DNA of 64,000 nucleotides from Devosia sp. Root635 (lineage in GTDB: Bacteria; Pseudomonadota; Alphaproteobacteria; Rhizobiales; Devosiaceae): contig NZ_LMGZ01000020.1 of the NCBI RefSeq assembly GCF_001427605.1, positions 102,519 to 166,518 of the forward strand. Reading direction: 5' to 3'. The translations under genes were made by a program, and so were the position numbers. The number at the start of each line of letters is the position of its first letter. The first letter of the stretch is position 1. The notes beneath the pieces were generated by a model. It made no database searches. It was not told where the DNA came from and saw only the letters and a list, made by a program, of their open reading frames with translations. Below are positions 2,359 through 27,117 of this stretch, one piece after another.

Positions 2359-2402
2359 GGTGTGTCTCCAGTGAGTGGAAGTCCAGTCGCCGGTCGCGGC
2401 GA

Positions 2403-3323: not shown

Positions 3324-3348
3324 CTTTCTCCTCATAGCCTTCGTCAGA

Positions 3349-5193: not shown

Positions 5194-5217
5194 TCCAATT
5201 CTCTCCGTACGGGCCAT

Positions 5218-7170: not shown

Positions 7171-7237
7171 ATGCTTTGACCGCGCTTCTCGCGCGAGTAG
7201 GAGGGGAAGAGAGTTGCGTCGCCGCCAGCGACAGGCT

Positions 7238-7717
7238 CTAACTTAGAGGCACCCGCCCGGCAGCCAAACCCTGCAACAGTCTGGCGAGATCAGGCTCGAA
7301 GACAATGCTGGCCGCTTCACCCGGGGTGAACCACTTTCTCTGGCGCTGCCCCTTTTCCTTCCACTTGTTCAGTTCTTTGGTGACGTGCAACGCGTAGACC
7401 AGGGTCTGAGCAGGTTTGGACTGTCCGTCGTCAAAGAGCTTGAACGATCGGAACGATCCCATCGGGGCTGCCGACACTGAACCGACGATGCCCGCCTCTT
7501 GCATCGCTTCCACCTGGGCGGCTTCCGGATCAGACCGACCCGCCATCGGCCAGCCCTTGGGAAGCATCCACTTGCCATTCCGGCGCGAGGTGATGAGGAG
7601 CACCAAGACGGCCCCACTTTCGTCTTGGCGCCAAGGCAGCGCCGCCACCTGTTCACAGAGTGGCGACGCCTTTCGGTCGGGCGCTCGCGCCTTTGGCTCA
7701 CGGTTCGACCCGGTCAT
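7238..7717 (-). CDS. NUDIX hydrolase, diphosphoinositol-phosphohydrolase-like
   Basis: This 159-residue single-domain NUDIX protein has the PKGWPMAGRS lead-in typical of the DIPP-like branch (diphosphoinositol polyphosphate phosphohydrolases). The NUDIX helix reads EAAQVEAMQEAGI. The usual Arg of the REXXEE core is Val, and the first Glu of the EE pair is Gln, so metal binding or activity may differ from the family norm. It lies between the phytase gene (49 bp) and iolC (67 bp) in the same direction. A role on inositol pyrophosphates or another phosphorylated intermediate is plausible but inferred from position. A housekeeping NUDIX function cannot be excluded. Confidence 0.82.
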   Translation of the reverse strand: MTGSNREPKARAPDRKASPLCEQVAALPWRQDESGAVLVLLITSRRNGKWMLPKGWPMAGRSDPEAAQVEAMQEAGIVGSVSAAPMGSFRSFKLFDDGQSKPAQTLVYALHVTKELNKWKEKGQRQRKWFTPGEAASIVFEPDLARLLQGLAAGRVPLS

Positions 7718-7766
7718 GGCCGTCTACGGTCACCTGTTGGCGCGATAGGGCTGGCTGTAGACATGC

Positions 7767-9101
7767 CTACTGCCTGGGATCCCAACCACTTGGGGTAACT
7801 TCGAGCGGGGGATCGAAGGAGTTGGCGATCAACGCCCAATCCACCAACTTGAAATTGGTGGCAGCGAATTCCCCGTCCAGATCGTTGAGGTCGCCAGCAT
7901 AACCATCCTGCGTGATGAAGACGCCATTGGGGAAGCCTGGCAGGGCCACCGAGATCACGTCGTCGCCATCGCTCTCCTGAACTGCGTCGATGTCGCCGGC
8001 TGCCGCCACCCTGAACGAGCCGAGAAGGTCGAGCTCCCCCTCGCCGATGTTGAAAACGGCGAAACTGTCGTCATAGGGGACGTCGCTGAACACCGGGGCT
8101 TCGCCGTGGGCGCTGCCCTGGCTGGACGCGAGCAGATAGCGCGCACCACTTTCGGCGTAGTAGATCGAGAGGCCTTCCACGTCGCGGGTGATGACGCTGT
8201 CGGCATTAAAGAAGCTGGAGGACGAGGATCCCCGCGTCGCGTAGGCAAGGACCGGATCGCCGCCAGTAACGGGCACTGTCCAGATGCCGACATCCTCCTG
8301 GCCGGCATAAACCGTACCAGTGGCGCGGTCGATCACCACCCCTTCGAACTGCGGGCTGAAATCGGCCAGCACATCGTCCTCGCTCTCCTTCCAAAGATCC
8401 TGCCCGTCATGCTCGGTTGGAGCGCTGAAGGCGTGATCGAACACGGCCGCGACTGTGCCATTCTCACGCGCTTCCAGCGCGAAGACGCCAACCACCGGCT
8501 GGTGTCGCTGCGTGCCGACCACCCAGGCCTTTTCGGAGGCCTTGTCGTGCCAGGCGGTCAAACCATAAACGGTTGCTTGGTCATCGACAGGATTGTCTTC
8601 CTGAGCGCCATCAGCCGTGGGCCGCCTGGGGAAGGCGCGACCGGCATCTGCTGCGGTGATCTCGGTGAGGGGTGCCTCGCGGTCGGTGCCGATTTGATAG
8701 ATACGGATGATGTCTAGCCCGCGGTCGGCGGCAATGACGAGATCGGCACTGGCGCCATCGCTCAGCGGGAAGCCATAAATGATGTCGACATTGTTGATGC
8801 GACCGTCTTCTTCAGCGGCGATCGCCTGGATAAGCGCGCCATCGAAGCCGTACACCCGGATCCCGCCGGTCTTGACGGCGGTGATGAACAGGCTCTTGGC
8901 GACGTCCTCGGCATTGACATAGATGGCGGGATCGTCGGCGTCGGCATCATCGGCGTCGGTTACCGCCTGGGTCTGCACGCTCGGCGCCACTTCATGGACC
9001 ACGTAGTCCTCAGCGGTGGCCGACACGGCGGGCGTCAGCGCGCAGGCGAGTGCCAGCAGCGCCACATGACTGGTGCCGATCTTCTTATGGAATCGTAACA
9101 A
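7767..9101 (-). CDS. phy: Secreted beta-propeller phytase (3-phytase)
   Basis: This 444-residue protein has a cleavable signal peptide (hydrophobic LLALACALTPAVSATA) followed by a beta-propeller phytase domain. The family signature DADDPAIYVN is present at about mature residue 35, together with the acidic, Ca2+-binding segments expected (DRGLDIIRIY, FEGVVIDRATGTVYAGQEDVGIW). Known enzymes of this family remove alternate phosphates from Ca-phytate outside the cytoplasm and leave inositol trisphosphates. The TTG at 9101 is preferred as start because AGGGAGG lies 8 bp before it. The GTG at 9131 gives an unusual charged leader. A sigma-70-like promoter and a LacI-type operator lie directly upstream. 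It heads a leftward series with NUDIX and iolCDEBG. Confidence 0.9.
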   Translation of the reverse strand: MLRFHKKIGTSHVALLALACALTPAVSATAEDYVVHEVAPSVQTQAVTDADDADADDPAIYVNAEDVAKSLFITAVKTGGIRVYGFDGALIQAIAAEEDGRINNVDIIYGFPLSDGASADLVIAADRGLDIIRIYQIGTDREAPLTEITAADAGRAFPRRPTADGAQEDNPVDDQATVYGLTAWHDKASEKAWVVGTQRHQPVVGVFALEARENGTVAAVFDHAFSAPTEHDGQDLWKESEDDVLADFSPQFEGVVIDRATGTVYAGQEDVGIWTVPVTGGDPVLAYATRGSSSSSFFNADSVITRDVEGLSIYYAESGARYLLASSQGSAHGEAPVFSDVPYDDSFAVFNIGEGELDLLGSFRVAAAGDIDAVQESDGDDVISVALPGFPNGVFITQDGYAGDLNDLDGEFAATNFKLVDWALIANSFDPPLEVTPSGWDPRQ

Positions 9102-9137
9102 TGCACTATCCTCCCTTTTCACGATCCGCACTCTTCA

Positions 9138-9153
9138 GTGCAACCGCGTGCAA
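9138..9153. promoter_or_regulatory. LacI-type operator C (phytase promoter)
   Basis: GTGCAACCGCGTGCAA matches 13 of 16 positions of the perfect palindrome at 20009-20024. It begins at the inner end of the phytase -10 box and covers the expected transcription start. This is the classical position for a repressor site. Confidence 0.72.
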
Positions 9154-9180
9154 AAATAGCTGCTGATCTTTGATTGTCAA
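9153..9180 (-). promoter_or_regulatory. Promoter of the phytase-NUDIX-iolCDEBG series
   Basis: On the minus strand TTGACA (9180-9175) is followed after 16 bp by TATTTT (9158-9153). Transcription would start near 9146, inside operator C. This is the best sigma-70-like promoter in the intergenic region. Confidence 0.6.
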
Positions 9181-9214
9181 CGATTATGTTAGCTAAAAGC
9201 AGGAACCAAGGCGA

Positions 9215-9230
9215 ATGCACGCACGTGCAA
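9215..9230. promoter_or_regulatory. LacI-type operator B (phytase/ABC intergenic)
   Basis: ATGCACGCACGTGCAA matches 14 of 16 positions of the 20009-20024 palindrome. It lies 62 bp from operator C, roughly six helical turns, so looping between the two sites is conceivable. It sits upstream of the ABC transporter genes. Confidence 0.72.
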
Positions 9231-9248
9231 TAAATTTCAGATTTAGGG

Positions 9249-9277
9249 TTGACGTGCTTCTTCGTTCTGTGAAGATT
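9249..9277 (+). promoter_or_regulatory. Candidate promoter of the ABC importer/phosphatase operon
   Basis: TTGACG at 9249-9254 and AAGATT at 9272-9277 are separated by 17 bp. The -10 box is weak. It lies just downstream of operator B and 117 bp before the permease start. Confidence 0.35.
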
Positions 9278-9393
9278 GCCGCGGACGGTGCTGGGTGCAT
9301 GGATGGAAGCGCCGAGTTTTGATGGAGGAGTTTTACGGTGATCACCCACCAGCGTGGCCAATGCGGCCCCCAAGCCGGGGCGGGAGTTAGGCG

Positions 9394-11244
9394 ATGAGTT
9401 ATGTCGCTCCAGCATCGGACGTTATTTCGAAGAGCGAGGCTCAGCCTCGTCCTAGCAGGCGAACTTTGCTGAAATACCGGCTGCGGGTCGCGATGCGCGA
9501 GCCCACTTCGCTGCTGGGCGTCGTCATGGCGCTGATCTTCACCTATCTGATCCTCGTGCCGATCCTGTCCATGCTGGTGCAGGCGGCGACGGTTCAGTTC
9601 GGCGACGAGCGCCGCACGGCGCTCGAGACCGCCAGCTGGACATTCTACTATCTGAACCGGACCTTCTTCTCCGCGATTTCCCGTGATCTGTTCTGGGAGC
9701 CGCTGGCGAACACGCTGACGGTGGCGGCCGGCGCCATTGCCATCGCCATGGTCATCGGCACGCCGCTGGCTTGGCTGTTGAGCCGCACCGACATGTTCGC
9801 CCGCCGCTGGTTCGCCACGGCTTTGATTGTCCCCTACATGCTTCCGGCATGGACCTTCGCGTTAGCCTGGACGACGCTTTTCAAGAACCGCACGGTCGGC
9901 GGCCAGCCTGGTTGGTTGGAAGCCCTCGGCTTCGCGCCGCCGGACTGGCTGGCCTATGGGCGCGTACCGATCACCATCATCCTGGCGCTGCACTATACGC
10001 CGTTCATCATCCTGCTCTTTGGCAGTGCGCTGAGGCGGTTCGACTCCCAACTCGAAGATTCCGCGCGCATCCTGGGGGCCAGATCTTATCAGGTCGCCTG
10101 GCAGATAATTCTCCCCTTGATGCGGCCGGCCCTGCTTTCCGCGATCATCCTGATCTTCGCCAAGTGCCTCGGTGAGTTCGGCGTGCCCTATGTGCTGGGC
10201 TTGCCGGTGAAATTCGAGGTACTTTCCACGTCGCTCTTCCGCAACATCGCGTCCCGTCAGACCGGCGTAGGCGCCGTCATCGCCGGGTCGATCATGCTCA
10301 TCGGCGTGGTCACCCTGATGATCGACGCCAAGCTGGTCCGGGAAGCCCGTCGCTTCGTGACTATTGGTTCGAAAGGCACGATGAACCGGCTGAGCAGGCT
10401 CGGCGCCTGGCGCTGGCCGCTGACCCTCTTCGCCGCGGCAATCTTCGTGCTGAGCGTCTGCATGCCGATCCTGACGCTTGTGCTGTCAACGGTCATGCGG
10501 CAGCCGGCCAACTTCGCGCTCGACAATTTCACGCTGGACTACTGGATCGGCAGCGACCTTGAAACAGTCGCGCTGCGCACCGGAATCCTGCTCAGCCCAG
10601 ACCTTTGGGCGGCGGCATGGAACACGCTGTGGATTGTCGGAAGCGCATCGATCACGTCGGGAATTTTCGGGCTGCTGGTGGGCTACGTTGTCGTGCGCAC
10701 CCCGTTCCGCCCGCTATCGACGTTTCTCCGCCAGGTGACCTTTCTGCCCTATCTCGTTCCGGGGATCGCCTTCGCCGCTGCCTATCTCTCGTTGTTCGCC
10801 GTGGCGCGCGGCCCCGTTCCGGCCCTTTATGGAACGGTGTGGATACTAATCCTGGCCCTGATGGCGGACCAGATGCCCTACGCCTCCCGCGCGGGCATCT
10901 CGGCGATGATGCAACTCGGCAAGGACCCCGAAGAGGCGGCCCAAATCGCCGGTGCCGGCTGGTTTCGGCGCATGGTGAGCGTGGTCATTCCCATCCAAAA
11001 GGGCTCGCTCGTCACCGGCGTGCTGCTGCCGTTCATTTCCGGGATCAAGGGGCTGAGCCTTTTCGTCATCCTCGCAGTTCCCTCCACCGACGTCCTCACC
11101 ACCTTCTCTCTGCGCCTCGTCGACTATCACTACACGCAAGCCGCCAACGGCGTGGTGCTGATCATTGCTGCCATGGCCTATTTCGGCACCGTGGCGGCCC
11201 AGAAACTAACCAAAACCAATATCGCCGAAGGGCTGGGAGGCTGA
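9394..11244 (+). CDS. ABC importer fused permease (AfuB/FbpB type)
   Basis: This 616-residue inner-membrane protein has about 12 transmembrane segments and two permease domains in one chain, as in Fe3+/hexose-phosphate (Fbp/Afu) transporters. Each half has a cytoplasmic EAA loop contacting the ATPase: EDSARILGARSYQVAWQ (about 225) and EEAAQIAGAGWF (about 510). A GGCGGGAG ribosome site precedes the ATG. The ATPase gene begins 1 bp after the stop. The transport substrate cannot be read from the permease. The surrounding phosphatases and inositol genes suggest inositol phosphates, while iron or hexose phosphates are the alternatives from the family. Confidence 0.88.
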   Translation: MSYVAPASDVISKSEAQPRPSRRTLLKYRLRVAMREPTSLLGVVMALIFTYLILVPILSMLVQAATVQFGDERRTALETASWTFYYLNRTFFSAISRDLFWEPLANTLTVAAGAIAIAMVIGTPLAWLLSRTDMFARRWFATALIVPYMLPAWTFALAWTTLFKNRTVGGQPGWLEALGFAPPDWLAYGRVPITIILALHYTPFIILLFGSALRRFDSQLEDSARILGARSYQVAWQIILPLMRPALLSAIILIFAKCLGEFGVPYVLGLPVKFEVLSTSLFRNIASRQTGVGAVIAGSIMLIGVVTLMIDAKLVREARRFVTIGSKGTMNRLSRLGAWRWPLTLFAAAIFVLSVCMPILTLVLSTVMRQPANFALDNFTLDYWIGSDLETVALRTGILLSPDLWAAAWNTLWIVGSASITSGIFGLLVGYVVVRTPFRPLSTFLRQVTFLPYLVPGIAFAAAYLSLFAVARGPVPALYGTVWILILALMADQMPYASRAGISAMMQLGKDPEEAAQIAGAGWFRRMVSVVIPIQKGSLVTGVLLPFISGIKGLSLFVILAVPSTDVLTTFSLRLVDYHYTQAANGVVLIIAAMAYFGTVAAQKLTKTNIAEGLGG

Positions 11245-11245
11245 C

Positions 11246-12421
11246 ATGCCGAATATCGAGTTGCGCGGCGCGCACAAAAGCTACGGCGGCCAGACGGCCA
11301 ATGCGGTGTCCGACCTGAACCTGGAGATCGGCGACGGCGAATTCATGTGCCTGCTCGGCCCCTCCGGTTGCGGCAAGACCACCACCCTCAGGATGATTGC
11401 CGGCCTGGAGAACCTGTCGGGTGGCGAAATCCGGATCGGCGACCGCGTGGTCGATTCAGTGGGGAAGGGCATTTTCGTGCCGCCCGAACAGCGCCAGCTG
11501 GGCCTGGTATTCCAGAGCTACGCGCTCTGGCCGCACCTGACGATCGAGCGGAATACCGATTTCGGACTGCGGCTGCGCAAGGTTCCGAAGGCAGAGCGCG
11601 AGCAGCGCGTGAATGCCGTCATGAAGGTGCTTGATATCGAGAAGTACCGGCATCGCTACCCCTCTCAGTTGTCGGGGGGGCAGCAGCAGCGCGTGGCACT
11701 CGCGCGGATGCTGGCCGTCAATCCGAACGTGCTGCTGCTCGATGAACCGCTGTCCAACCTCGACGCGCGGCTGCGCCTGGAAATGCGGGCTGAACTGAAG
11801 GCGCTCCATGCCGCCTTCAAGACCACGATCGTCTTCGTGACCCACGATCAATGGGAAGCCATGACCCTGGCCACCACCATCGCGGTCATGAACGAGGGCA
11901 CCCTGCAGCAGATGGGGACCCCCGATGACATCTATGAACGTCCGGCCAACCGGTTCGTGGCCGAATTCGTCGGCAGCCCGCCGATCAACATCCTCGAGGT
12001 ATCCGCCGAGACGCTCTCGGGTCCGGCTACGGCAATGTCCGCCTATCTCCGCAACCGGTTCGGCGCGCTGGTCTCGGTGGGCTCGGTAGGCATTCGCCCG
12101 GAAGCCCTGCACATCAGCGAGATCGGGCAATCGGTTCCCGATGGGGCCTTTGCGGTTGAGGGGAATGTGTCGGGTGTCCTACCCACCGGCGGCAGCTGGA
12201 TTCTCGAACTGCAATGCGCTGATGGAACGTTCTTCCTGACCACCCATCAACCCCCTGAAACGACATCGGGAACACCGGTTACCGTGTGGGCCGAGTCCAA
12301 GGCGCTTCACGTCTTCGACCCAGCGGGCCGACGCATGGAGGAAGCCGATCGGCTGCTCCGGCCCGAACGAAAGATCGCAGCGGTCTCAACAATTAAGGGG
12401 CTGACTGCGTCCGCAGGATAA
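11246..12421 (+). CDS. ABC importer ATP-binding protein (FbpC/UgpC type)
   Basis: This 391-residue ATPase has Walker A GPSGCGKTT (about 38-46), signature LSGGQQQR, Walker B LLLDEP with the D-loop SNLDARLR, and the switch His in THDQWEAM. The C-terminal ~120 residues form the TOBE-like regulatory domain of CUT1/Fbp ATPases. The start follows a GGGAGG site overlapping the end of the permease gene. It would energise the adjacent permease. Confidence 0.9.
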   Translation: MPNIELRGAHKSYGGQTANAVSDLNLEIGDGEFMCLLGPSGCGKTTTLRMIAGLENLSGGEIRIGDRVVDSVGKGIFVPPEQRQLGLVFQSYALWPHLTIERNTDFGLRLRKVPKAEREQRVNAVMKVLDIEKYRHRYPSQLSGGQQQRVALARMLAVNPNVLLLDEPLSNLDARLRLEMRAELKALHAAFKTTIVFVTHDQWEAMTLATTIAVMNEGTLQQMGTPDDIYERPANRFVAEFVGSPPINILEVSAETLSGPATAMSAYLRNRFGALVSVGSVGIRPEALHISEIGQSVPDGAFAVEGNVSGVLPTGGSWILELQCADGTFFLTTHQPPETTSGTPVTVWAESKALHVFDPAGRRMEEADRLLRPERKIAAVSTIKGLTASAG

Positions 12422-12475
12422 CCCCTCTCCGTCAAGTGAATATCGAGCATTCAAATCAATCCGCAGACGCGGAAC

Positions 12476-12494
12476 AAGCGCCTCAAAGGCGCTT
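12476..12494 (+). other. Hairpin before the first binding-protein gene
   Basis: AAGCGCCT and AGGCGCTT pair around a 3-nt loop, 18 bp upstream of the first solute-binding-protein start. There is no U-tract. Such intercistronic stems often allow higher expression of binding-protein mRNA. That role is inferred. Confidence 0.5.
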
Positions 12495-12511
12495 CCACCG
12501 AGGAGGAACGA

Positions 12512-13618
12512 GTGAACAATTCAATGAAATTTCTGCTGATGAGCGTCAGTTTCGCGGCTTTTGCGCTGCCGGGTGCGGCTCAGGAATTCGATCTCGATGC
12601 GATGATCGAAGCGGCCCGGGCCGAGCCGCCCATCAATGTCTACGACAGCACCGGCAAGATTGTCGAAATGGCGGAGAACTTCGCCGAAGAATACGGGCTG
12701 CAGGCCACCGGCACAAAGGCGAAAGCCTCCGAACAGCTTGAGCTGGTCCTGCGCGAGGCCATGGCAGGAAATGTGCAGGCCGACGTCGTGATCATCTCCG
12801 ACGCCCCGGCGGCCGTCGGGCAGCTCGTTCCGCAGGGTTTCGCTGGCAGCTGGCTGGCGCCGGACCTCGTCGACAAGGTCGAGCTGGGCTATCAGGACCC
12901 CCTGGTCGTCGTGACCATGCCGGTTGTATGGGCCTACAATACCGAACTTTTCGACGCGTGTCCCATCGCCAATATCTGGGAACTCACCGAGCCCGAATGG
13001 AAGGGCAGGGTCGCCTTCGAGGACCCGCTTGGCAAGACGGTCTATACCGACTGGTTCAGCCAGATGGAGGCGCATGGCAATGACGATCTGGAAGCGGCTT
13101 ACGAAGCCCATTTCGGCAGGCCGCTGGATAGCGACGAGACGCCCACGCGAGCCTTTATCAAGGCGCTGGCTGGAAACTCGCCGCTAATGACGTCCTCCGA
13201 CAATGCCGCTTCGGAAGCGGCGGCGGCGCCCGGGCAGACCGAGCCCTTTATTGCCCTGGTCAGTGCCGCCAAGTTCCGCGAAAACGAGGCGAGCGGCTTT
13301 CATCTGGGTCTCTGCAAGGGGATGGAGCCCTGGATCGGCTTCACCAATGCAGGGGTCGGCCTGATCGCATCGGGTACCGACAGTCCAAACGCAGCCCGTC
13401 TCTTCCTGCGCTACGTGATGACCGAAGAGGGGATCGCGCCCCAGGCGCAGGACGGCAAGATGTCGTCCAACAAGGACGTTGGTCTGCCTGAAGGGGAGCC
13501 GTCGGGCATCGCGGAAGCCTGGGACCAGCTTCTCGCCTACGACATGTCGACCGTCATCGAGGATTGGGAGACCCGGCAGGACTGGCAGGACTTCTGGCAA
13601 CTGAACTACGTGCGTTGA
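12512..13618 (+). CDS. Periplasmic solute-binding protein 1 (Fe3+/sugar-phosphate family)
   Basis: This 368-residue family-1 extracellular binding protein has a signal peptide ending GAA before QEF. The GTG at 12512 is chosen because AGGAGG lies 5 bp upstream, while the in-frame ATG at 12524 is too far from it. Conserved blocks YDSTGKIVEMA, VWAYNTELF, WELTEPEWKGRVAFEDPL and a C-terminal WETRQDWQDFWQLNYVR are shared almost word for word with the next gene. Family relatives bind Fe3+, 2-aminoethylphosphonate or hexose phosphates. The phosphatase-rich operon points to a phosphorylated polyol such as an inositol phosphate. Confidence 0.87.
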   Translation: MNNSMKFLLMSVSFAAFALPGAAQEFDLDAMIEAARAEPPINVYDSTGKIVEMAENFAEEYGLQATGTKAKASEQLELVLREAMAGNVQADVVIISDAPAAVGQLVPQGFAGSWLAPDLVDKVELGYQDPLVVVTMPVVWAYNTELFDACPIANIWELTEPEWKGRVAFEDPLGKTVYTDWFSQMEAHGNDDLEAAYEAHFGRPLDSDETPTRAFIKALAGNSPLMTSSDNAASEAAAAPGQTEPFIALVSAAKFRENEASGFHLGLCKGMEPWIGFTNAGVGLIASGTDSPNAARLFLRYVMTEEGIAPQAQDGKMSSNKDVGLPEGEPSGIAEAWDQLLAYDMSTVIEDWETRQDWQDFWQLNYVR

Positions 13619-13694
13619 TCAAGGCCCCGACAAACCCATACCGCACCAGCGGGATCGATGCCACAAAATGAGTGGCACATTGGAGGAGACTACA

Positions 13695-14795
13695 ATGATG
13701 AAACATCTGCTTCTCGGCACCTGCTTTGCCGCCCTGGCGCTGCCGGTTGCGGCCCAGGAATTCAACCTGGATGCCATAATCGAGGCCGCGAAGGGCGAGC
13801 CGCCGATTACCATCTATGACAGCACCGGCAAGATCGTCGACATGGCCGAGGCCTTCACCGCCAAATATGGTGTCCAGGCGACCGGGCAGAAGGTCTCGGC
13901 AAACAGCCAGCTCGAGATGATCATTCGGGAAAACCAGGCAAACAATGTTGTTGCCGACGTGGTGATGATTACCGATGCCCCCGCGGCGCTGTCTCAGCTG
14001 ATCCCTCAGGGATTCGTTGAAAGCTGGGTGCCCAATGATCTGACCGACAATATTCCCGCCAAGTTCCGCAACCCGCTGACCGTCTCGACGAATGCGAACG
14101 TCTGGACGTACAACACCGAGGTTAACGAGACCTGCCCGGTTTCCAATGTGTGGGAGCTGACGGAGCCGGAATGGCGCGGCAAGGTCGCCTTTGTCGATCC
14201 CCTGACCAAGGGCACCTACACCGACTGGTTCAACCAGATGGAAAAGCACGGGGATGCTGAACTCGCCGCTGCCTACAAGGAGCATTTCGGCACCGAGCTG
14301 GATACCAGCTCCGAAAGCGCCACCAAGCAGTGGCTGAAGGCGCTCGCGGCAAATGCACCGCTGCTGACCGATGGCGACGATCCGGCGTCGGAAGCTGTCG
14401 GCGCTCCCGGACAGGCCGAGCCGTTCTTCGGACTGATGAGCTCGGCCAAGTTCCGTGACAACGAGGACAAGGGCTACAAGCTGGGCCTGTGCGAAGACAT
14501 CAAGCCGTGGGTCGGCTGGACGTACAATAAGCTGGCGCTGATCTCCTCCAAAACGGATAGCCCCAACGCGGCCCGGCTGTTCGTGCACTATGTGCTGACC
14601 GAAGAGGGCATTGCCCCACAGATGGCCGACGGCAAGATTTCCACCAATACTGAAGTCCAGATTCCCGACGACGAGCCCTCCGGCCTCGCCCAGCATCTCG
14701 ACGCCCTCTTCCCCTACGACTTGTCGACCGGCTTTGACGACTGGGAGACCCGCCAGGATTGGCAGGACCTCTGGACGATCAACTACTCCAAATAA
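13695..14795 (+). CDS. Periplasmic solute-binding protein 2 (paralog of protein 1)
   Basis: This 366-residue binding protein has a signal peptide ending PVAA before QEF. The ATG at 13695 follows GGAGGAG, and the longer upstream reading has no family support. It shares YDSTGKIVDMAEAF, WELTEPEWRGKVAFVDPL and WETRQDWQDLWTINYSK with the preceding protein, so the pair arose by tandem duplication. Only one permease and one ATPase are present, so both probably deliver to the same channel, perhaps with different isomers or phosphorylation states. Confidence 0.87.
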   Translation: MMKHLLLGTCFAALALPVAAQEFNLDAIIEAAKGEPPITIYDSTGKIVDMAEAFTAKYGVQATGQKVSANSQLEMIIRENQANNVVADVVMITDAPAALSQLIPQGFVESWVPNDLTDNIPAKFRNPLTVSTNANVWTYNTEVNETCPVSNVWELTEPEWRGKVAFVDPLTKGTYTDWFNQMEKHGDAELAAAYKEHFGTELDTSSESATKQWLKALAANAPLLTDGDDPASEAVGAPGQAEPFFGLMSSAKFRDNEDKGYKLGLCEDIKPWVGWTYNKLALISSKTDSPNAARLFVHYVLTEEGIAPQMADGKISTNTEVQIPDDEPSGLAQHLDALFPYDLSTGFDDWETRQDWQDLWTINYSK

Positions 14796-14820
14796 CGGCG
14801 GGCTCCCACCGCTGTACTAG

Positions 14821-14844
14821 GCGTCCCCCGCGAGCGGGGGACGC
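14821..14844 (+). other. GC-rich hairpin after binding protein 2
   Basis: GCGTCCCCCGC and GCGGGGGACGC form a perfect 11-bp stem with a 2-nt spacer. No U-run follows, so this is more likely an mRNA-stabilising or partially attenuating stem than a full terminator. It separates transporter genes from the phosphatase genes of the same series. Confidence 0.6.
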
Positions 14845-14867
14845 CACATCAACCCTCTGGAAATATC

Positions 14868-15734
14868 ATGACCTTGCTCAGTCCAGCGCCTGACGACCAA
14901 CATCTCGCGGAGTCCGCCCGGCTCATGCACATCGCAAAAGAGGCCGCCACCTTGGTTGGCGCGCCGCTTCGCGCCGCGTTCCGTTCCACGATGGCGGTGG
15001 ACTACAAGGTGGACCTGCACGACATCGTGACGGTGCATGACAAGCAGTCCGAAGCGACGATACGGGACTACATCCTCAAGACGGAGCCGGATTCTACCCT
15101 TCTGGGTGAAGAGGGGGGCAGTGTCGGCTCCGGTCGCGTGCAGTGGTTTGTGGACCCCATCGACGGAACCTCCAATTTTGCTCGTGGCCTCGCCTTCTGG
15201 TGTGTGTCCATCGGTGCGGTGATAGACGACCGGGTCGTTGCCGGCGTCATCTATGACCCGGTCGCCGGCCACCTGTTTTCTGCCGATCTCACCGGAGCCT
15301 GGCTGAACGGGCAGGTGCTTCGGTCCGCCGCTTGCCCGGATGAAAGTCACGCCACCCTGATCACGGGGTACCCCGTGGCACGCGACTTCCGGTTGGACGG
15401 AAAGGAACGCGCTCTCGCCAGCTTTGGGGAATTGGCCGAAACGTTCTCCACCCTGCGCCGCCCCGGCAGCGCGGCACTCAGCATCGCGCATGTCGCGGCT
15501 GGCTGGGCCGACGCCGCGGTCGGGTTTGGCTGCAATCCCTGGGATGTGACCGCCGCCGTGCTGATCCTCAGAAACGCGGGCGGCAGCTATCGCCCGCTGC
15601 CTTTGGGCAAGGTGGCACCTGGCTCTGCCGCTCATCTTTGCCCCGGCTACGTCGCTATTGGTGACGGCGGCAGGTACCCAACGCTCGATAGCGTCGCCAC
15701 CGACATCTCCGAACGACGCCAATTGTCGCGCTGA
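14868..15734 (+). CDS. Inositol monophosphatase family protein 1
   Basis: This 288-residue cytosolic Mg2+-dependent phosphatase has the IMPase metal and substrate motifs LLGEEGG (Glu ligand), DPIDGTSNFARG (about 99-110) and a C-terminal WDV Asp. It lacks a signal peptide. It starts 72 bp after the binding-protein gene, past a hairpin. The likely reaction is removal of the last phosphate from an inositol monophosphate (or related sugar phosphate) brought in by the adjacent importer. Histidinol phosphatase or 3',5'-bisphosphate nucleotidase activity is known in the superfamily, but the location argues for inositol phosphate. Confidence 0.88.
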   Translation: MTLLSPAPDDQHLAESARLMHIAKEAATLVGAPLRAAFRSTMAVDYKVDLHDIVTVHDKQSEATIRDYILKTEPDSTLLGEEGGSVGSGRVQWFVDPIDGTSNFARGLAFWCVSIGAVIDDRVVAGVIYDPVAGHLFSADLTGAWLNGQVLRSAACPDESHATLITGYPVARDFRLDGKERALASFGELAETFSTLRRPGSAALSIAHVAAGWADAAVGFGCNPWDVTAAVLILRNAGGSYRPLPLGKVAPGSAAHLCPGYVAIGDGGRYPTLDSVATDISERRQLSR

Positions 15735-15759
15735 TATCCGCGCAACCTGACCAACAAGA

Positions 15760-16626
15760 ATGGACCATCACGAAATGACCGCAGCATTGGCCGGACCAGC
15801 TCCCGCCGTTGATCTCGATGAGCGCGTGGAGTTCCTGCGTGGACTGGCCGCAAGTGCGGGTGCATTGGCGCGCGTCGGCTTCGTTCGCCGGACGCAAAGC
15901 CAAATTGCTTACAAGGGTCCCCAGGACTTCCTGACGGAAACCGACTCCGCGGTGGAAAACCACATAAAGTCCCAGATCTCAGCCGCCTTTCCGCGAGACG
16001 GCTTCCTCGGTGAGGAAACCGGATCAGAGGTGTTGGGCGACAATCTGTGGGTTGTCGATCCTATCGATGGAACAGCCAATTTTGCACGAGCCATCCCCCA
16101 CTTCTGCATCTCGATCGCTTTTGTATCTCGCGGTCGCACAATGCTTGGCGCAATATACAATCCGGCATTGGACGAGCTTTACATAGCTCGGCGCGGTGGA
16201 GGGGCCGAACTGAATGGGGTTCCCATTCGAGTGGCCATAACCGCCGATCCCGCCGTCGCCTGCGTTGAACTGGGATGGTCGCGACGTGTGCCCCAGGATG
16301 TCTACGTAGACACCCTGGAGAGGCTTCTGAATTGTGGGGCCAATGTCAGGCGTGGGGCCTCTGGTGCTCTGGCTCTGGCCTACGTTGCCGATGGTCGCTC
16401 CGACTGTTATGCCGAGCTGCATATGCAGCCCTGGGATTGCCTGGCGGGACTGCTCCTGGTGGAGGAGGCGGGAGGTGTCGTTGTGCCGTTCCTTGAACGG
16501 GATGGACTTTCCAAGGGAGGAGCGGTTTTGGCAGTGGCGCCCGCGCTGGCGGAATTGATGAGCGAAGCAACTCGTATCGACCTGGGCCTACGTCGAGCAT
16601 TCGCGGGTCTTGGGGTCCAAGCCTGA
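15760..16626 (+). CDS. Inositol monophosphatase family protein 2
   Basis: This second IMPase-family protein of 288 residues diverges well from the first. Motifs are FLGEETG, DPIDGTANFARA (about 99-110) and QPWDCLAG. No signal peptide is seen. It follows the first phosphatase by 25 bp and ends 1 bp before the next gene. The start is ATG 15760; ATG 15775 is an alternative and neither has a strong ribosome site. Two divergent IMPases in one operon suggest division of labour between positional isomers. Confidence 0.87.
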   Translation: MDHHEMTAALAGPAPAVDLDERVEFLRGLAASAGALARVGFVRRTQSQIAYKGPQDFLTETDSAVENHIKSQISAAFPRDGFLGEETGSEVLGDNLWVVDPIDGTANFARAIPHFCISIAFVSRGRTMLGAIYNPALDELYIARRGGGAELNGVPIRVAITADPAVACVELGWSRRVPQDVYVDTLERLLNCGANVRRGASGALALAYVADGRSDCYAELHMQPWDCLAGLLLVEEAGGVVVPFLERDGLSKGGAVLAVAPALAELMSEATRIDLGLRRAFAGLGVQA

Positions 16627-16627
16627 G

Positions 16628-17275
16628 ATGCCCTTAGTTGAAAGCCAGAGCCCAGATATGACCTCCAACGCGCCTCGTTACGATCGTCCGCGCATTAGCC
16701 GGATACTAGAGAATGTCCCGCCCTACGGCGTTGATGTGTTCATAAGCGGGAGCGACGGAGCAAGCGACGTCGAGCTCCTGCAGGCCAACCGCATCACCAC
16801 GGTCGTGAATTGCGCCGTGAACCTGGACTTCAACTTCGTCACTGACACACAAGTGGAAGCCAGTCAGAGCCAAGTCGGTCATGGCTCCGGGGCAATACGC
16901 TATTACAAGCTAGGCCTCATCGACGGGCCGGGCAATCCAGAGACAATGATGCTGGCCGGCTATTACCTCCTGCAGGGAGCGTTCCAGCAGATCCTGCCGG
17001 ACAGGGCCTCTTATCCGAGGCGCGAACGCGGCAATGTGCTGGTGAATTGCCGAGGCGGTCGGAGCCGGTCGGTTGTCCTGGTGTCACTGTTTCTCCATCA
17101 TACGGTGCCAGATCGCTTTCCCACGCTGGATGACGCATTGAACCATGTGCGTACCCAGCGCGAATTGCGGCCGGATGAATGGTTTGAGGCGCCCAAGCCG
17201 GTGCTGATCGAGGCCGCCCGTCGAGCGTCCACGTGGATAAGCCACATCGAGGCAGACCTGCAGCAAGTGCGCTGA
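16628..17275 (+). CDS. CX5R phosphatase (dual-specificity/PTP-like)
   Basis: This is a 215-residue cysteine phosphatase. The P-loop reads VNCRGGRSRSVV (about residues 141-152), fitting C-X5-R with the Ser after Arg typical of dual-specificity enzymes. The residue before the Cys is Asn rather than the usual His. The start 1 bp after the preceding stop (TGAGATG) fits translational coupling. The stop overlaps the ATG of the next gene (TGATG). Some CX5R enzymes are PTP-like phytases acting on inositol polyphosphates, so a cytosolic inositol-phosphate role is suggested. A protein phosphatase role is the alternative. Confidence 0.75.
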   Translation: MPLVESQSPDMTSNAPRYDRPRISRILENVPPYGVDVFISGSDGASDVELLQANRITTVVNCAVNLDFNFVTDTQVEASQSQVGHGSGAIRYYKLGLIDGPGNPETMMLAGYYLLQGAFQQILPDRASYPRRERGNVLVNCRGGRSRSVVLVSLFLHHTVPDRFPTLDDALNHVRTQRELRPDEWFEAPKPVLIEAARRASTWISHIEADLQQVR

Positions 17276-18909
17276 TGCGTCTTGCCATTATTGCCGACCC
17301 ACACCTGCATGACACGTCATACGATCCGCTTGGCGACGGCTCGGGTGCATTCCGAACGCTTTCGCAAACAGTCGGGTCAACGCGTGTTTTCAACGAAAGC
17401 GTGCCGGCGTTTCGCGCCGCCCTTGATGACCTCGTTCGCAGGGGCATTTCGTACGTCATCCTGGTCGGAGACCTGACGGACGATGGCCAGGATTATGCCG
17501 TTGCCTGCGCCCGCCGGATCCTGAGTGAATACGAGGATCGACATGGACTGCGGTTCTTTGCATGTGTGGGCAACCACGACCTGTTTGCGATCAGCGGCCG
17601 CCACCGCAGGAAAGCCTTCCTGCGCCCCGATGGCTCCACCTATCACGTAAGCAGCGATGCGAGCGACCCAGCCGACGTGGTTTCGAACGCCATGCATTGC
17701 GGCGGCTATCGGGCGTTCATTGGCGCCTTCGCGAACCTTGGCTTTATGCGCCAGGAAGGCGATCTCCTGTGGGAGACCCCATTCGGAACGGAGGATGATC
17801 CCCAGTCACGGCTTGCCGAATTGTCAGGGCTGGGTACGGGGCAGGGCGGTTCGATGTTTGACGCATCCTACCTCGTCGAACCGACAGACGGCCTATGGCT
17901 GCTTTCGTTGGATGCAAATGTATGGATACCAGATGCAAGCGTCCCCGACGGCGCGATCGATTGTTCCGACGCTGGGTGGAACGCGGCCGTGCTGCACAAG
18001 CCCTATCTGCTCGACTGGCTGTCGTCGGTGGTGGCGAGGTCGGAGGCATCGGGGAAGCGGCTGGTCGTATTCTCGCACTACCCGGTGCTGCCCCCGCTCA
18101 GCAGTGATCCTGCACAAGAACATGATCTCCTCGGCACCTCCGATCTGTTGGCCAGAATGCCCTCGAAGGCGACCAGCCAGCGCTTTGCGGGGACAGGCGC
18201 GCGGCTGCATTTCAGCGGGCATTGGCACGTTGATGGGACATCAGCGGGAGCAGGGTTGGTAAATGTCGCGGTGCCGTCGATCGTTGCGTTGCCAGCGGCC
18301 TACAAGATTGTTCGGCTTGAGGAAGATCGCGCCGATATCGAGACAGTCTCCCTCGGAGGTGTGCCTGGGTTTGATATCGCCAAGCAGGCATATGAATCCG
18401 AGATAGCATTCGCCGGATCTGCTGCTGCCTCGGTAGTTGCGGTTGACGATTATGCCGGGTTCCTGAGCAATCAACAGGGCAGACTTGCGGTCGAGCGCTA
18501 CCTCGGACGCGAGTGGCCACGGAATATTGCGCAGACGTTTTCATCATCAACTATTGCGGATATGGCCGCACCATTCGGCCTGGATCCGGGCCCCTGGGGG
18601 TCCCGTCCGTTGCAGGAGGTCGTCGGGGACTGGTACCGTCTGCGTCGGGCCGGTCCTCTGGCTCATCACCTGATCGGCGAACCCTGCTTAGATCTCTACC
18701 GGAACCTGGCAGGACATTACGCAGGGGCCACCTTTCCTGCCGGCAGCGCGGCATCGGCGTTTCGACTCTTTATGATGATGATGGGAAGTTACCTTGCCGA
18801 TCGCGACATGACCGTTTCAGTTCAGTTGGCCGATGCAGGGGTCACTCCCCGGAGCGTGGCATCCTTGGGCGAACAGAACGACGCCACACTGGAACTGGGT
18901 GAAAACTGA
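17275..18909 (+). CDS. Calcineurin-like metallophosphoesterase
   Basis: This is a 544-residue cytosolic metallophosphoesterase. The five metal-ligand blocks are present in order: ADPHLHD (8-14), GDLTDDG, GNHD, FSHYPVLPP and FSGHWHVDG. The C-terminal ~170 residues have no obvious domain. ATG at 17275 overlaps the preceding TGA. It is the last gene of the rightward series. Its 3' end overlaps the convergent lacI gene by 68 bp. It is expected to hydrolyse a phosphomonoester or diester; the inositol phosphate assignment is inference from context. Confidence 0.85.
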   Translation: MRLAIIADPHLHDTSYDPLGDGSGAFRTLSQTVGSTRVFNESVPAFRAALDDLVRRGISYVILVGDLTDDGQDYAVACARRILSEYEDRHGLRFFACVGNHDLFAISGRHRRKAFLRPDGSTYHVSSDASDPADVVSNAMHCGGYRAFIGAFANLGFMRQEGDLLWETPFGTEDDPQSRLAELSGLGTGQGGSMFDASYLVEPTDGLWLLSLDANVWIPDASVPDGAIDCSDAGWNAAVLHKPYLLDWLSSVVARSEASGKRLVVFSHYPVLPPLSSDPAQEHDLLGTSDLLARMPSKATSQRFAGTGARLHFSGHWHVDGTSAGAGLVNVAVPSIVALPAAYKIVRLEEDRADIETVSLGGVPGFDIAKQAYESEIAFAGSAAASVVAVDDYAGFLSNQQGRLAVERYLGREWPRNIAQTFSSSTIADMAAPFGLDPGPWGSRPLQEVVGDWYRLRRAGPLAHHLIGEPCLDLYRNLAGHYAGATFPAGSAASAFRLFMMMMGSYLADRDMTVSVQLADAGVTPRSVASLGEQNDATLELGEN

Positions 18910-19873
18910 CGGTCTCGTTCGCCGCGGCGCTTGAGCCGCCGGCGACCAAAAGCGAGGCAATGTGCTCGGCGATGGCACCAAGGGGCTGGCTAAACGTCGT
19001 GAGGTTGTAGGCAATCCAGGATGCCTGCTCGATATTATCAAAGCCGATGATGCTCAACTCGTCCGGCACGACGATGCCGAATTCGTCACGAGCAACGTCC
19101 ATGCAACCCATTGCCAGCAGGTCGGTGATGCAGAAGATGCCGTCTGGGGCAGAGGTTCGGCTGAAAAGCTGCCGAGCAGCCTCCGCACCAGTGGCGTAAC
19201 CCGTGGGACCTGTACGCATGACTTGGGTGTCTCGCCCGTCCTCACGGGCTGCCGCAATGAAAGCCGTCTCTCGGGCCATCAGACTTGGTGTGCCGGCGGT
19301 GGAGCTTACGACAGCAATTCTCGCGCAGCCCGCCCTCTTGAGAAGTTGATATGCCTCTCTGCCTGCCTGACCGTTTTGGACAACGATATTCGTGGGCCCG
19401 CTCAACTGGTCGTCACGGTTGATCAGGATAACGCGTTGACCATTGGACAGGCAGGTAGCAATCAGGGAAGGCGAGGGAGTACCGGAGAGGACGATGACGG
19501 CCTCAGCACGATAGTTCACTGTTTGCCGCATGGCGGCCGCAACCTCTTCCGTACTGCCGATGGTATTGATGACCATCGCGATCTTGCCCACGGATTGGAG
19601 CTTCTTGGTCACGATGTCGATCATTTGAGCCTGATACGGGGTCGAAACATCCGACACCACGAGGCAGATGATGTTGCTCCTCTCGTGCGAGAGGCCGCGT
19701 GCCAGGTGGTTGACATGATAGCCTAGGGTCTCTGCCGCCTGCAGTACCTTCTTACGGGTTCCCGGTGACACGCTTGCCCCATCGGTGAACGTGCGGGAAA
19801 CGGCGGATCTCGATACGCCTGCGAGTTTGGCAACCTCTTCCGCAGTGACGAAGCTTCGCTCGCGTATTTCCAT
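18842..19873 (-). CDS. LacI-family transcriptional regulator of the inositol-phosphate locus
   Basis: This 343-residue regulator has an N-terminal LacI helix-turn-helix (VTAEEVAKLAGVSRSAVSR, residues 8-26), a hinge and a periplasmic-binding-protein-like effector domain (IICLVVSDVSTPYQAQM to the C-terminus). ATG 19873 is chosen because the HTH starts directly after it. The longer reading would translate through the operator at 19889-19904. Sites of the same palindrome occur in front of its own gene, at the phytase/ABC intergenic region and at the Pi transporter. It is therefore the natural local repressor. The inducer is probably an inositol phosphate or inositol (inference). Confidence 0.9.
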   Translation of the reverse strand: MEIRERSFVTAEEVAKLAGVSRSAVSRTFTDGASVSPGTRKKVLQAAETLGYHVNHLARGLSHERSNIICLVVSDVSTPYQAQMIDIVTKKLQSVGKIAMVINTIGSTEEVAAAMRQTVNYRAEAVIVLSGTPSPSLIATCLSNGQRVILINRDDQLSGPTNIVVQNGQAGREAYQLLKRAGCARIAVVSSTAGTPSLMARETAFIAAAREDGRDTQVMRTGPTGYATGAEAARQLFSRTSAPDGIFCITDLLAMGCMDVARDEFGIVVPDELSIIGFDNIEQASWIAYNLTTFSQPLGAIAEHIASLLVAGGSSAAANETVSFHPVPVWRRSVRPRMPRSGE

Positions 19874-19888
19874 TGAAGTCACTCTAGA

Positions 19889-19904
19889 TTGCACTGCTGT
19901 GCAG
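19889..19904. promoter_or_regulatory. LacI-type operator D (lacI autoregulation)
   Basis: TTGCACTGCTGTGCAG has the TGCAC-N4-GTGCA core of the other three sites (11 of 16 positions match site A). It lies 16 bp upstream of the regulator start codon, which suggests negative autoregulation. Confidence 0.6.
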
Positions 19905-19980
19905 TTTCGCCTGCAAGATAGGCTCTTGCCAACCATGAATGAAGGCTACGAAATTTCTGATCCTGAATCAACTTTAGTTC

Positions 19981-20009
19981 TTGACCCCCAGCGACTTAGA
20001 GGGCAAAAT
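19981..20009 (+). promoter_or_regulatory. Promoter of the Na/Pi transporter gene
   Basis: TTGACC (19981-19986) and CAAAAT (20004-20009) are separated by 17 bp. The operator starts at the last base of the -10 box, the same geometry as at the phytase promoter. Confidence 0.55.
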
Positions 20010-20024
20010 TGCACGCGCGTGCAA
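20009..20024. promoter_or_regulatory. LacI-type operator A (perfect palindrome)
   Basis: TTGCACGCGCGTGCAA is a perfect 16-bp palindrome and the best of the four sites. It lies between the -10 box and the Na/Pi transporter start (20062). Confidence 0.78.
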
Positions 20025-20061
20025 GGCATCGGCTTGTTCGGCATCTCGAGAGTAGATCCCT

Positions 20062-21723
20062 ATGGCATCCACCGTACAACTGATTGACCTGCTCGGCGCT
20101 GGCGCACTCCTGATTTGGGGTCTGCGCCTCATCAAGACGGGGATATTGAGGGCATTCGGTGCGTCTCTCAGGCAGTGGATTCGGCGGGGGACAGGCAATC
20201 GGGTAAACGCTGCCTTTGCGGGGCTTCTTGCCACCATCGCGATGCAATCCAGCACTGCCACCGCTGTGGTCACCGCTTCTTTCGCCAGTCGTGGGCTCAT
20301 CAATCCCAAGATGGGCCAGGCGGTCATGTTAGGCGCCAATGTCGGGACTGCCATCGCGGCACTGGTCCTCTCCCTGGACGTCCATTGGTTCGGGTCCGCC
20401 ATGATCCTGGTGGGCGTGGCAATCAGTACCAGAAGCAAATTGGCGGCAGGGAAGGGTATCGGAAGGGCATTGCTTGGGCTGGGGTTGATGCTGGTCGCGC
20501 TTCGCCTCATGGCCAATGTGACCGAGCCCATGCGCAACTCGGAGGTGGTCATCGATCTACTGGCGGCGTTGGGCGAGGCGCCAGTCTTGGCCGTAATCTT
20601 CGCGGCTTTGCTGGCGTTTATTTCGTCGTCGAGCCTAGCGGTCGTCCTTTTTGCTTCGCTGCTGTTTCAAGGCGGGGTCATTTCTGCCCTGCTTGTCGTT
20701 TTTCTTGTTGCGGGGGCGAACCTGGGCGGGGCGGTGCCGCCCTGGCTGGCGGTATTCAACGACGGCCCGGAAGCACGGCGTCTTGCAACTGCAAATCTGA
20801 TTGTGCGGGCCATCGGTTCAGTGGCCTTGATGCTCGTCGCGGCCCCATTCGTGCGGGCCATGGAAGGCATTCTTCCCGACATTGACATGATCGCCGTCGC
20901 GATCCATCTGATCTTCAACGTGGCATTGCTTCTAGTATTCTTGCCTGTCATCGGCCCGATCTACCATCTGGCCGGGATGCTGTTGCCCAAGGCGAAGACG
21001 TCTGAAAGCTCTGGCAGCTATCTCGACGAGAGTGCGCTCACTACGCCCGCGCTCGCGCTGGTCGGCGCGGCCCGGGAGGCACTCAAGGTGGGTGACCTGG
21101 TGAAGCAGATGCTCGAAGCAAGCCTACGTGGCTTGATCAGCAATGATCCAGAGCTGAGGGTCCATCTGTCTACGCTCGAGGACCAGGTCGATGCGTCCCA
21201 GGAGGCGATCAAGTTCTACCTGGCGAAGCTAAATCCGGCCGAACTTGACGACGAGGACCGTCTAAGGTCGGACGAGATCGTCTCCTACGCGATCAATCTC
21301 GAACATGCGGGTGATATCATCCATATCGGATTATGTGAACTCGCCATGAAGAAGTCCGCGGGTCACCTGTCCTTCTCGTCGGAAGGCTTGGCGGAACTGA
21401 GAGCCCTCTTTGAGAAGACCCTGGAAAATCTTCAGCTTTCACAGTCTGTGTTCCTGACCAGGGACGAGGATTTGGCCACCCGCCTGGCCCTGGCGAAAGT
21501 GGAAGTCAGGCGTCTCGAAGCGGAGTCCTCTACGCAGCATCTTCAACGCGTCCGTGAGCGACGTTCCGAAGCGTTGGAAACGAGTTCCCTGCACCTCGAT
21601 ATGCTGCGGGACTTGAAGCGCATCAACGCCCATTTTGCCTCGGTTGCGGCATCTGTCCTCGAGCAGACGGGGCATACGACATCAAGCAGACTATTGTCCC
21701 TGCCGGACCGGACAGCGCCCTAG
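20062..21723 (+). CDS. Na/Pi cotransporter family protein with PhoU-like domain (YjbB/NptA type)
   Basis: This is a 553-residue inner-membrane protein. Residues 1-310 carry the two Na/Pi repeat motifs, MQSSTATAVVTASF (about 60) and ISSSSLAVVLFASL (about 193). Residues 330-540 form a cytoplasmic PhoU-like helical domain. E. coli YjbB of this architecture exports Pi. In a pathway that releases phosphate inside the cell, a Pi outlet is sensible, though the direction of transport is inferred. It carries the best LacI-type operator of the locus and is transcribed away from lacI. Confidence 0.85.
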   Translation: MASTVQLIDLLGAGALLIWGLRLIKTGILRAFGASLRQWIRRGTGNRVNAAFAGLLATIAMQSSTATAVVTASFASRGLINPKMGQAVMLGANVGTAIAALVLSLDVHWFGSAMILVGVAISTRSKLAAGKGIGRALLGLGLMLVALRLMANVTEPMRNSEVVIDLLAALGEAPVLAVIFAALLAFISSSSLAVVLFASLLFQGGVISALLVVFLVAGANLGGAVPPWLAVFNDGPEARRLATANLIVRAIGSVALMLVAAPFVRAMEGILPDIDMIAVAIHLIFNVALLLVFLPVIGPIYHLAGMLLPKAKTSESSGSYLDESALTTPALALVGAAREALKVGDLVKQMLEASLRGLISNDPELRVHLSTLEDQVDASQEAIKFYLAKLNPAELDDEDRLRSDEIVSYAINLEHAGDIIHIGLCELAMKKSAGHLSFSSEGLAELRALFEKTLENLQLSQSVFLTRDEDLATRLALAKVEVRRLEAESSTQHLQRVRERRSEALETSSLHLDMLRDLKRINAHFASVAASVLEQTGHTTSSRLLSLPDRTAP

Positions 21724-25579: not shown

Positions 25580-25584
25580 CGGGA

Positions 25585-26562: not shown

Positions 26563-26564
26563 GG

Positions 26565-27059: not shown

Positions 27060-27117
27060 GCGGGGCCTCCGGCAGGTTGCGACACGCTCAAGCTAGGCCG
27101 GCCCGGCCGCCAATACT

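Follow-up and report, generated by a model that had tools for sequence, protein, structure and literature searches.

A predicted LacI regulon for the import and dephosphorylation of inositol phosphates in Devosia and its relatives

A 64-kb window (the whole stretch of DNA analysed, positions 102519-166518 of contig NZ_LMGZ01000020.1) from the 3.8-Mb genome of Devosia sp. Root635 was examined. Pfam and NCBIfam annotation showed one locus with adjacent genes for a beta-propeller phytase (BPP), an ATP-binding cassette (ABC) importer that has two binding proteins, four phosphatase-type enzymes belonging to three folds, a LacI-family regulator, a Na/Pi cotransporter family protein with a PhoU domain (Na/Pi-PhoU protein) and the inositol catabolic enzymes iolCDEBG. 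The four phosphatase-type enzymes are two inositol monophosphatase family proteins (IMP1 and IMP2), a dual-specificity-phosphatase-like protein (DSP) and a calcineurin-like metallophosphoesterase (MPE). The locus probably belongs to a LacI-controlled regulon for the import and dephosphorylation of inositol (poly)phosphates, as judged from gene content and predicted operators. A broader proposal, to which we give slightly less than an even chance, is that of a widespread alphaproteobacterial LacI regulon, with outliers in Vibrio salinus and Marinomonas, which would import still-phosphorylated inositol polyphosphates and join a cytosolic phosphatase team to a dedicated Na/Pi exporter. In the source Devosia, a duplicated iol set would have moved from IolR to LacI behind the phytase.

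Predicted LacI operators and the conserved core

The palindrome TTGCAC-N4-GTGCAA is common to both divergent gaps of the locus and lies before the phytase, the importer and the Na/Pi gene. This conserved palindrome marks a LacI regulon with predicted operators. Copies with at most two mismatches were found upstream of 48/74 LacI, 44/99 permease and 5/37 Na/Pi genes, compared with 44/1050 random slices of the same loci; the operator is weaker or absent in much of the Rhizobium/Ensifer type. At one mismatch or fewer, the source genome has five sites, three of them in the window (including one within the beginning of the LacI gene), and the reversed pattern has 0. A search of 34 cluster genomes gave 45 exact operators, compared with 5 matches to the reversed pattern, and 26 of these 34 genomes had at least one operator. 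Thirty-three of the 45 are within cluster loci, two are beside them (G318, G320) and ten are elsewhere.

The unlinked phytase gene of D. limi carries an exact operator upstream, plus a one-mismatch site. Another exact operator precedes a stand-alone MPE gene (L213) in a genome whose own cluster (L062) has no MPE, and two off-cluster exact operators in Vibrio salinus (L219) precede an IMP-like gene. The off-cluster operators near COX1/LysR (L216), GMC oxidoreductase (L214) and heparinase-like (L220) genes, in L218, and near a sugar binding protein with a sugar-binding regulator (L215) are unclear or chance-like. In D. faecipullorum (L217, 4317-8501), a second LacI gene (58%) and another ABC transporter flank an exact operator, which may mark a further branch of the regulon.

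A sequence-only reading of this DNA had proposed control by LacI rather than by phosphate starvation. The conserved operator and its presence at two unlinked genes, for a phytase and for a metallophosphatase, agree with that proposal, as does the absence of a Pho-box-like site from the cluster; in the window, 3 sites with 3 mismatches to the pattern were found, against 3.7 expected by chance. These results bear on the explanation that the system scavenges phosphorus from organic phosphates, with the Na/Pi protein importing phosphate. Phytases are often expressed for phosphorus, and the cluster includes a member of the Na/Pi cotransporter family that carries a PhoU domain. In the available text of a study on Mitsuokella, growth on phytate raised pstSCAB (PMC7618129). 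However, the missing Pho-box-like site, the sugar-type LacI regulator with its own operator and the co-occurrence with iol genes make phosphorus scavenging very unlikely.

The permease was used to scan named genomes, and the best 80 of 110 relatives were kept; all counts over 80 refer to these loci. Absence of the gene association in relatives had been named beforehand as one result that would refute the sequence-only reading. For the core, the association was found: permease, ATPase, binding protein, IMP, DSP and LacI occur together in 66/80 permease loci. By family, the permease was present in 80, the binding protein in 80, the ATPase in 79, IMP in 73, DSP in 72, LacI in 69, MPE in 61, the Na/Pi protein in 34, iol genes within 10 kb in 3 and the phytase in 1. 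IMP and DSP were both present in 70/80, and a HAD hydrolase was also present among the cluster genes (15/96 clustered sequences). The DSP gene is rare in the order of the source genome (12/297 genomes). The gene order differs among the Rhizobium/Agrobacterium, Aminobacter/Mesorhizobium, Pelagibacterium and Rhodobacteraceae types, and the association has therefore outlasted rearrangement.

Some related loci depart from this pattern. A permease subgroup with about 61% identity (L133, L136, L138, L140, which are four of the five loci found to have no phosphatase among the 80) shares another neighbourhood with a response-regulator-group gene. In L026, of the same subgroup, a phosphonate-binding-type protein adjoins the permease; this arrangement is noted for G020, which has no phosphatases either. 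In another genome of the genus (G010; L030, 10042-17218), a 35%-identical permease stands with RpiR, a binding protein, an ATPase, a histidine phosphatase and a Na/Pi-PhoU protein. By predicted families, this is a second pairing of an organophosphate-type ABC importer, a cytosolic-type phosphatase and a Na/Pi protein. Seven loci (L054-L060) carry LacI, an ATPase, a binding protein of another type, a permease, a metallo-beta-lactamase fold protein and a DSP with 28-37% identity to that of the window; they are perhaps a distant sister system whose substrates may be phosphodiesters or cyclic phosphates. Beside LacI in G006 (L023, 10231-10421), the Na/Pi gene is reduced to short matches in two frames, apparently a decayed copy.

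Gene organisation and protein families

The genes and sites of the locus are as follows (window positions).

498..1526, minus strand: iolG, inositol 2-dehydrogenase (TIGR04380, 425 bits against a cut-off of 355; a longer frame starts at 1655)
1558..2358, minus strand: iolB (Pfam KduI/IolB, 357.6 bits)
2403..3401, minus strand: iolE (Pfam AP_endonuc_2 and place in the iol run; by codon use the start may be 3323)
3349..5217, minus strand: iolD (Pfam TPP enzyme domains; TIGR04377 above cut-off in a whole-genome search)
5218..7170, minus strand: iolC fused to DUF2090 (Pfam PfkB and DUF2090)
7238..7717, minus strand: NUDIX gene, 159 amino acids, between phytase and iolC (Pfam NUDIX, 31 bits)
7767..9131, minus strand: beta-propeller phytase (Pfam Phytase, 149.7 bits against a gathering score of 21)
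9138..9153, no strand: candidate LacI operator, two mismatches, immediately before the phytase start (palindrome pattern)
9153..9180, minus strand: promoter-like site facing the phytase, 10/12 matches (pattern match)
9215..9230, no strand: candidate LacI operator, one mismatch (palindrome pattern)
9394..11244, plus strand: ABC permease, two membrane units in a single chain of 616 amino acids (Pfam BPD_transp_1, two stretches)
11246..12421, plus strand: ABC ATPase (Pfam ABC_tran and TOBE_2)
12512..13618, plus strand: binding protein 1 (Pfam SBP_bac_11)
13668..14795, plus strand: binding protein 2 (Pfam SBP_bac_11; predicted structure of the MctA/FbpA/AfuA class)
14868..15734, plus strand: IMP1, inositol monophosphatase family (Pfam Inositol_P, 167.6 bits; DPIDGT kept)
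15760..16626, plus strand: IMP2, inositol monophosphatase family (Pfam Inositol_P, 196.4 bits)
16658..17275, plus strand: DSP, dual-specificity-phosphatase-like, with a C-x5-R loop (start by codon use; a longer frame runs from 16610)
17233..18909, plus strand: MPE, calcineurin-like metallophosphoesterase (Pfam Metallophos, 44.1 bits; start may be 17275)
18842..19936, minus strand: LacI-family regulator (Pfam LacI and Peripla_BP_3)
19889..19904, no strand: operator-like site, one mismatch, within the LacI gene start (palindrome pattern)
20009..20024, no strand: candidate LacI operator, perfect palindrome, between the LacI and Na/Pi genes (palindrome pattern)
20062..21723, plus strand: Na/Pi cotransporter family protein with PhoU (Pfam Na_Pi_cotrans and PhoU; NCBIfam Na_Pi_symport above cut-off)

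The reading frames of all named genes are open in the window. The gene list of the sequence-only reading was recovered in full; its interval of 7238..21723 holds the importer, phosphatase, LacI, Na/Pi and phytase genes, whereas iolCDEBG lie outside it at 498-7170. The NUDIX gene was not part of that list. The minus-strand genes are closely spaced in the order phytase, NUDIX, iolC, iolD, iolE, iolB and iolG, with gaps of about 49, 67, 0, 25, 44 and 31 bases (starts at 7717, 7170, 5217, 3323, 2358 and 1526). For iolG, codon use makes the start at 1526 more likely than that at 1655. The plus-strand genes form a tight run from the permease through the ATPase, the two binding proteins, IMP1, IMP2 and DSP to MPE. 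The LacI and MPE genes are convergent, whereas the LacI and Na/Pi genes are divergent. The top NCBIfam match of the permease was PhnU2, far under its cut-off. By eye, the Nudix box of the NUDIX gene (7238-7717) looks incomplete against the consensus, and whether its product may act on inositol pyrophosphates is a question.

Two other regions of the window were annotated. Peptidase U32, UbiD-family, heavy-metal ATPase, COX1-family and NnrS genes at 24653-43086 resemble a region for anaerobic or nitrogen-oxide respiration unrelated to the cluster. At 54331-58756, an AbiEii-type gene close to a phage-type integrase, in a stretch where G+C is lower, points to a small island of mobile or defence genes.

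The N-terminal stretch of the phytase resembles a signal peptide by eye. The protein aligned to the solved Bacillus-type phytases 3amr (E = 5.3e-29) and 1poo, with the DDPAI, NNVD and DxEG stretches kept; its profile match is split in two pieces, and it belongs to a divergent branch. As a family, BPP phytases are not known to proceed beyond inositol trisphosphates. IMP1 and IMP2 both retain the DPIDGT motif, and the closest solved relatives of IMP2 are named inositol-1-monophosphatases. The DSPc match of the DSP is below the Pfam cut-off (27.4 against 33.5 bits). Its predicted structure (mean predicted local distance difference test score, pLDDT, 91.8) matched dual-specificity phosphatases at 15-23% identity, and the loop cysteine and arginines are invariant in 35 aligned sequences. 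Assignment of the DSP as a PTP-like (cysteine) phytase was not supported, as Pfam gave only the sub-cut-off DSPc match and the closest folds are dual-specificity phosphatases. MPE retains its metal motifs and has a single weak solved relative (E = 0.0027). An inspection by eye found no obvious export signal in the four phosphatases, and they were therefore placed in the cytosol.

The model of binding protein 2 (pLDDT 92.8) falls in the MctA/FbpA/AfuA class, which includes metal-citrate, ferric-iron and hexose-phosphate binders. Its identity to AfuA and VcA0625 was 19-20% over the model, and its profile matched AfuA (4r72) with E = 5.7e-7. The metal-citrate and ferric-binding proteins among the nearest solved folds would fit uptake of iron or other metals through metal-phytate or metal chelates. 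However, of 43 aligned binding proteins, 3 have a tyrosine pair like that of ferric binders, both window proteins lack it, and no iron gene or iron regulator was found among the cluster families. The phosphatases and iol genes would also have no role in metal uptake, an explanation that we consider extremely improbable.

Phytase and inositol genes around the core

In the genus, the phytase family PF02333 was found in 11/75 genomes: 5/7 with the DSP marker and 6/68 without it (P = 4.8e-4). An operator precedes 3/5 of the phytases in genus genomes with the DSP marker and 0/6 of those in genomes without it (P = 0.06, weak alone). Among all cluster genomes, PF02333 occurs in 4/46, and the phytase is an accessory of the cluster. 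Since the phytase is this infrequent and linked iol genes are a minority arrangement, the core is import and dephosphorylation, not phytate use as such. The sequence-only reading is thereby partly supported: the operator and the recurrent iol linkage favour an inositol-phosphate system under LacI, in which the weight now falls on the import step instead of the phytase.

The iolD gene was found at most 20 kb from the permease in at least 6/46 other cluster genomes, compared with 0.47 expected (P = 1e-5; P = 1.3e-4 if the two Pelagibacterium are counted once). This result comes from a manual comparison of the places of iolD with those of the permease or operator, with entered copy numbers and rounded genome sizes. 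The 20-kb limit was set after the places had been seen, the farthest being at about 18 kb, and all six cases were confirmed on maps. The count is a lower bound because the 10-20 kb range was covered in part of the genomes only.

The arrangements differ. In Parasedimentitalea (L230), iolCDEB stands directly before the permease; in Neorhizobium (L231), iolG is followed by IMP2; in Cucumibacter (L229), iolCDEB is convergent to the Na/Pi gene; and in Pelagibacterium (L052, L228), iol genes lie beyond MPE. D. naphthalenivorans (L154) has iolG directly after the Na/Pi gene, behind an exact operator, and a separate iolCDB. Linked iol is a minority arrangement and an accessory. In most linked sets the iol genes themselves have no LacI operator, so the sites point to joint LacI control in two cases only, the iol genes of the window and the D. 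naphthalenivorans iolG.

A second iol locus is present elsewhere in the source genome and in D. naphthalenivorans. That of the source genome has an RpiR-type regulator gene and an ABC transporter nearby, with GGAA-N6-TTCC sites upstream of both iolC and the regulator. The available text of PMC2597717 describes this sequence as the IolR-module site in Caulobacter and further alphaproteobacteria. No GGAA-N6-TTCC site was found in the 64-kb window, and Pfam annotation found no RpiR regulator or further importer beside the window iol genes. In the simplest reading, the window copy would handle inositol made inside the cell and answer to LacI. The iol copy of D. naphthalenivorans retains one-mismatch IolR-like sites, and the change of regulator would therefore be complete only in the source Devosia.

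Two further lines on iolD were dropped. Its presence in 43/46 cluster genomes against 85/249 of the order sample was set aside as mostly a lineage effect that cannot support the proposed regulon, because 69/75 genus genomes have iolD with or without the cluster. Two iolD copies were found in 2/7 cluster genomes of the genus and in 4/68 others (P = 0.09).

Several results weigh against the proposed inositol-phosphate regulon. The low frequency of PF02333 in cluster genomes is one, and the phytases of G406 and G006 (cluster genomes of the genus) and of Peteryoungia (outside it) have no operator. The iol genes are within the 10-kb flanks of the permease at only 3/80 loci, and 5/80 loci have the importer and no phosphatase. 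No iolD above cut-off was found in 3/46 cluster genomes. One of them, Marinomonas (L131), has the importer, IMP, DSP, LacI and an exact operator, and its scanned neighbours include no inositol genes. In the Devosia locus, no iolA was identified between 498 and 21723, the range to which the search was confined, and the operators in the phytase/permease gap are imperfect (1 and 2 mismatches). The ligand cannot be named from the predicted binding-protein fold alone, and the class also has iron and citrate binders.

Part of this evidence fits a general AfuABC-like set of importer and phosphatases that would handle phosphorylated sugars or polyols; phytase and iol genes would have been added in few lineages, and an inositol phosphate would not have to be its usual substrate. 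Enzymes of the inositol monophosphatase family also accept other substrates, the fold class of the binding protein includes the hexose-phosphate binders AfuA and VcA0625, most cluster genomes have no BPP, and Marinomonas has phosphatases but no iolD above cut-off. A general set of this kind is nevertheless unlikely: the iol linkage is above chance in differing arrangements, the phytase is in the regulon even if unlinked, and two IMP together with DSP and MPE suggest several phosphates per molecule.

The phytase, the iol duplicate and an unrelated importer cluster might also be adjacent by accident. The minority of genomes in which iol and phytase adjoin the cluster and the imperfect operators of the shared gap would fit this. 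The best promoter-like match of positions 1-20000 (9180-9153, minus strand) faces the phytase, and its -10 element touches the operator at 9138-9153. Promoter-like sites are nevertheless at chance frequency in the region (4 found, 5.3 in shuffles), as are terminator-like sites, so that the extent of the transcript is not given by the sequence. Accident is still highly improbable, given the operators at the unlinked phytase of D. limi, the co-occurrence of phytase and DSP marker across the genus, the iol linkage statistics and the lack of IolR-type sites at the window iol copy.

Proposed route and known systems

In the route that we infer for the LacI-controlled inositol-phosphate regulon, LacI would act as a repressor and would be released from the TTGCAC-N4-GTGCAA operators by an inducer, probably inositol or one of its phosphates; the genes may share one long transcript. 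The exported BPP would trim phytate outside the cytoplasm, and lower inositol phosphates would pass into the periplasm. The ABC importer would then take up these partly phosphorylated inositols. In the cytosol, the four phosphatases of three folds would remove the remaining phosphates, and the freed inositol would enter the co-induced iol enzymes (iolCDEBG) and serve as carbon. Surplus phosphate would be exported by the Na/Pi-PhoU protein, the gene of which stands behind a predicted operator of its own. This protein is better read as a putative phosphate exporter, by family precedent only; YjbB of the Na/Pi family is described as a phosphate exporter in the available text of PMC11389368. An exporter is appealing because each inositol trisphosphate would bring three phosphates per six carbons, above the need for growth.

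Inositol phosphates make up a major class of the organic phosphorus in soils, and discussion has mostly treated them as a source of phosphorus. If the import-first, carbon-driven route is correct, bacteria replete with phosphate would also mineralise inositol phosphates and set phosphate free around them, and the route would be present in many relatives from Rhizobium, Agrobacterium, Ensifer, Aminobacter and Devosia. On this reading, an orphan phosphatase of the dual-specificity type and a family of metallophosphatases acquire roles that can be tested, and the duplicated iol pathway would be an example of a change of repressor.

The cluster type is one of organophosphate ABC import joined to catabolism. 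Its parts are known families, while the combination and the regulon appear new. No earlier description of such an importer or regulon was found among the titles and abstract openings given by a literature search whose reach excluded most subscription papers and all bioRxiv preprints. In the available parts of the sources, 'ABC transporter' does not occur in a 2025 review of gut inositol metabolism (PMC12482443), and neither 'phosphatase' nor 'LacI' occurs in a 2022 genome survey of inositol use (PMC9430895). A 2014 LacI survey gives IolR for inositol, and 'phosphatase' is absent from its main text as available (PMC4052901).

The AfuABC and VcA0625 hexose-phosphate ABC importers resemble the Devosia system in the predicted fold class of the binding protein and in ABC import of phosphate esters, whereas in the Devosia cluster the permease is one fused chain, there are two binding proteins and a set of putatively cytosolic phosphatases, and control would be by LacI. 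Compared with known beta-propeller phytases, the Devosia phytase is under a predicted LacI operator beside an importer. The window shares iolCDEB and iolG with the alphaproteobacterial IolR module as described for Caulobacter and Sinorhizobium in the available text of PMC2597717, but its iol copy has no GGAA-N6-TTCC site, RpiR regulator or inositol importer and follows a phytase. The Na_Pi_cotrans and PhoU domains are shared with the YjbB-type phosphate exporter, as far as described in PMC11389368, and are found here in a putative organophosphate regulon. In the accessible account of Flavobacterium PafA (PMC8812569), an organophosphate serves as carbon source independently of phosphate, as proposed here; there PafA removes the phosphate, whereas in Devosia import would come first, followed by cytosolic phosphatases of other folds. 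Mitsuokella jalaludinii is reported, in the available text of PMC7618129, to turn phytate into central metabolites with a phytase and iol enzymes, as proposed for Devosia. There, an inositol transporter and pst genes were induced on phytate, and the same text does not mention an inositol-phosphate importer, the step at which the Devosia route would differ.

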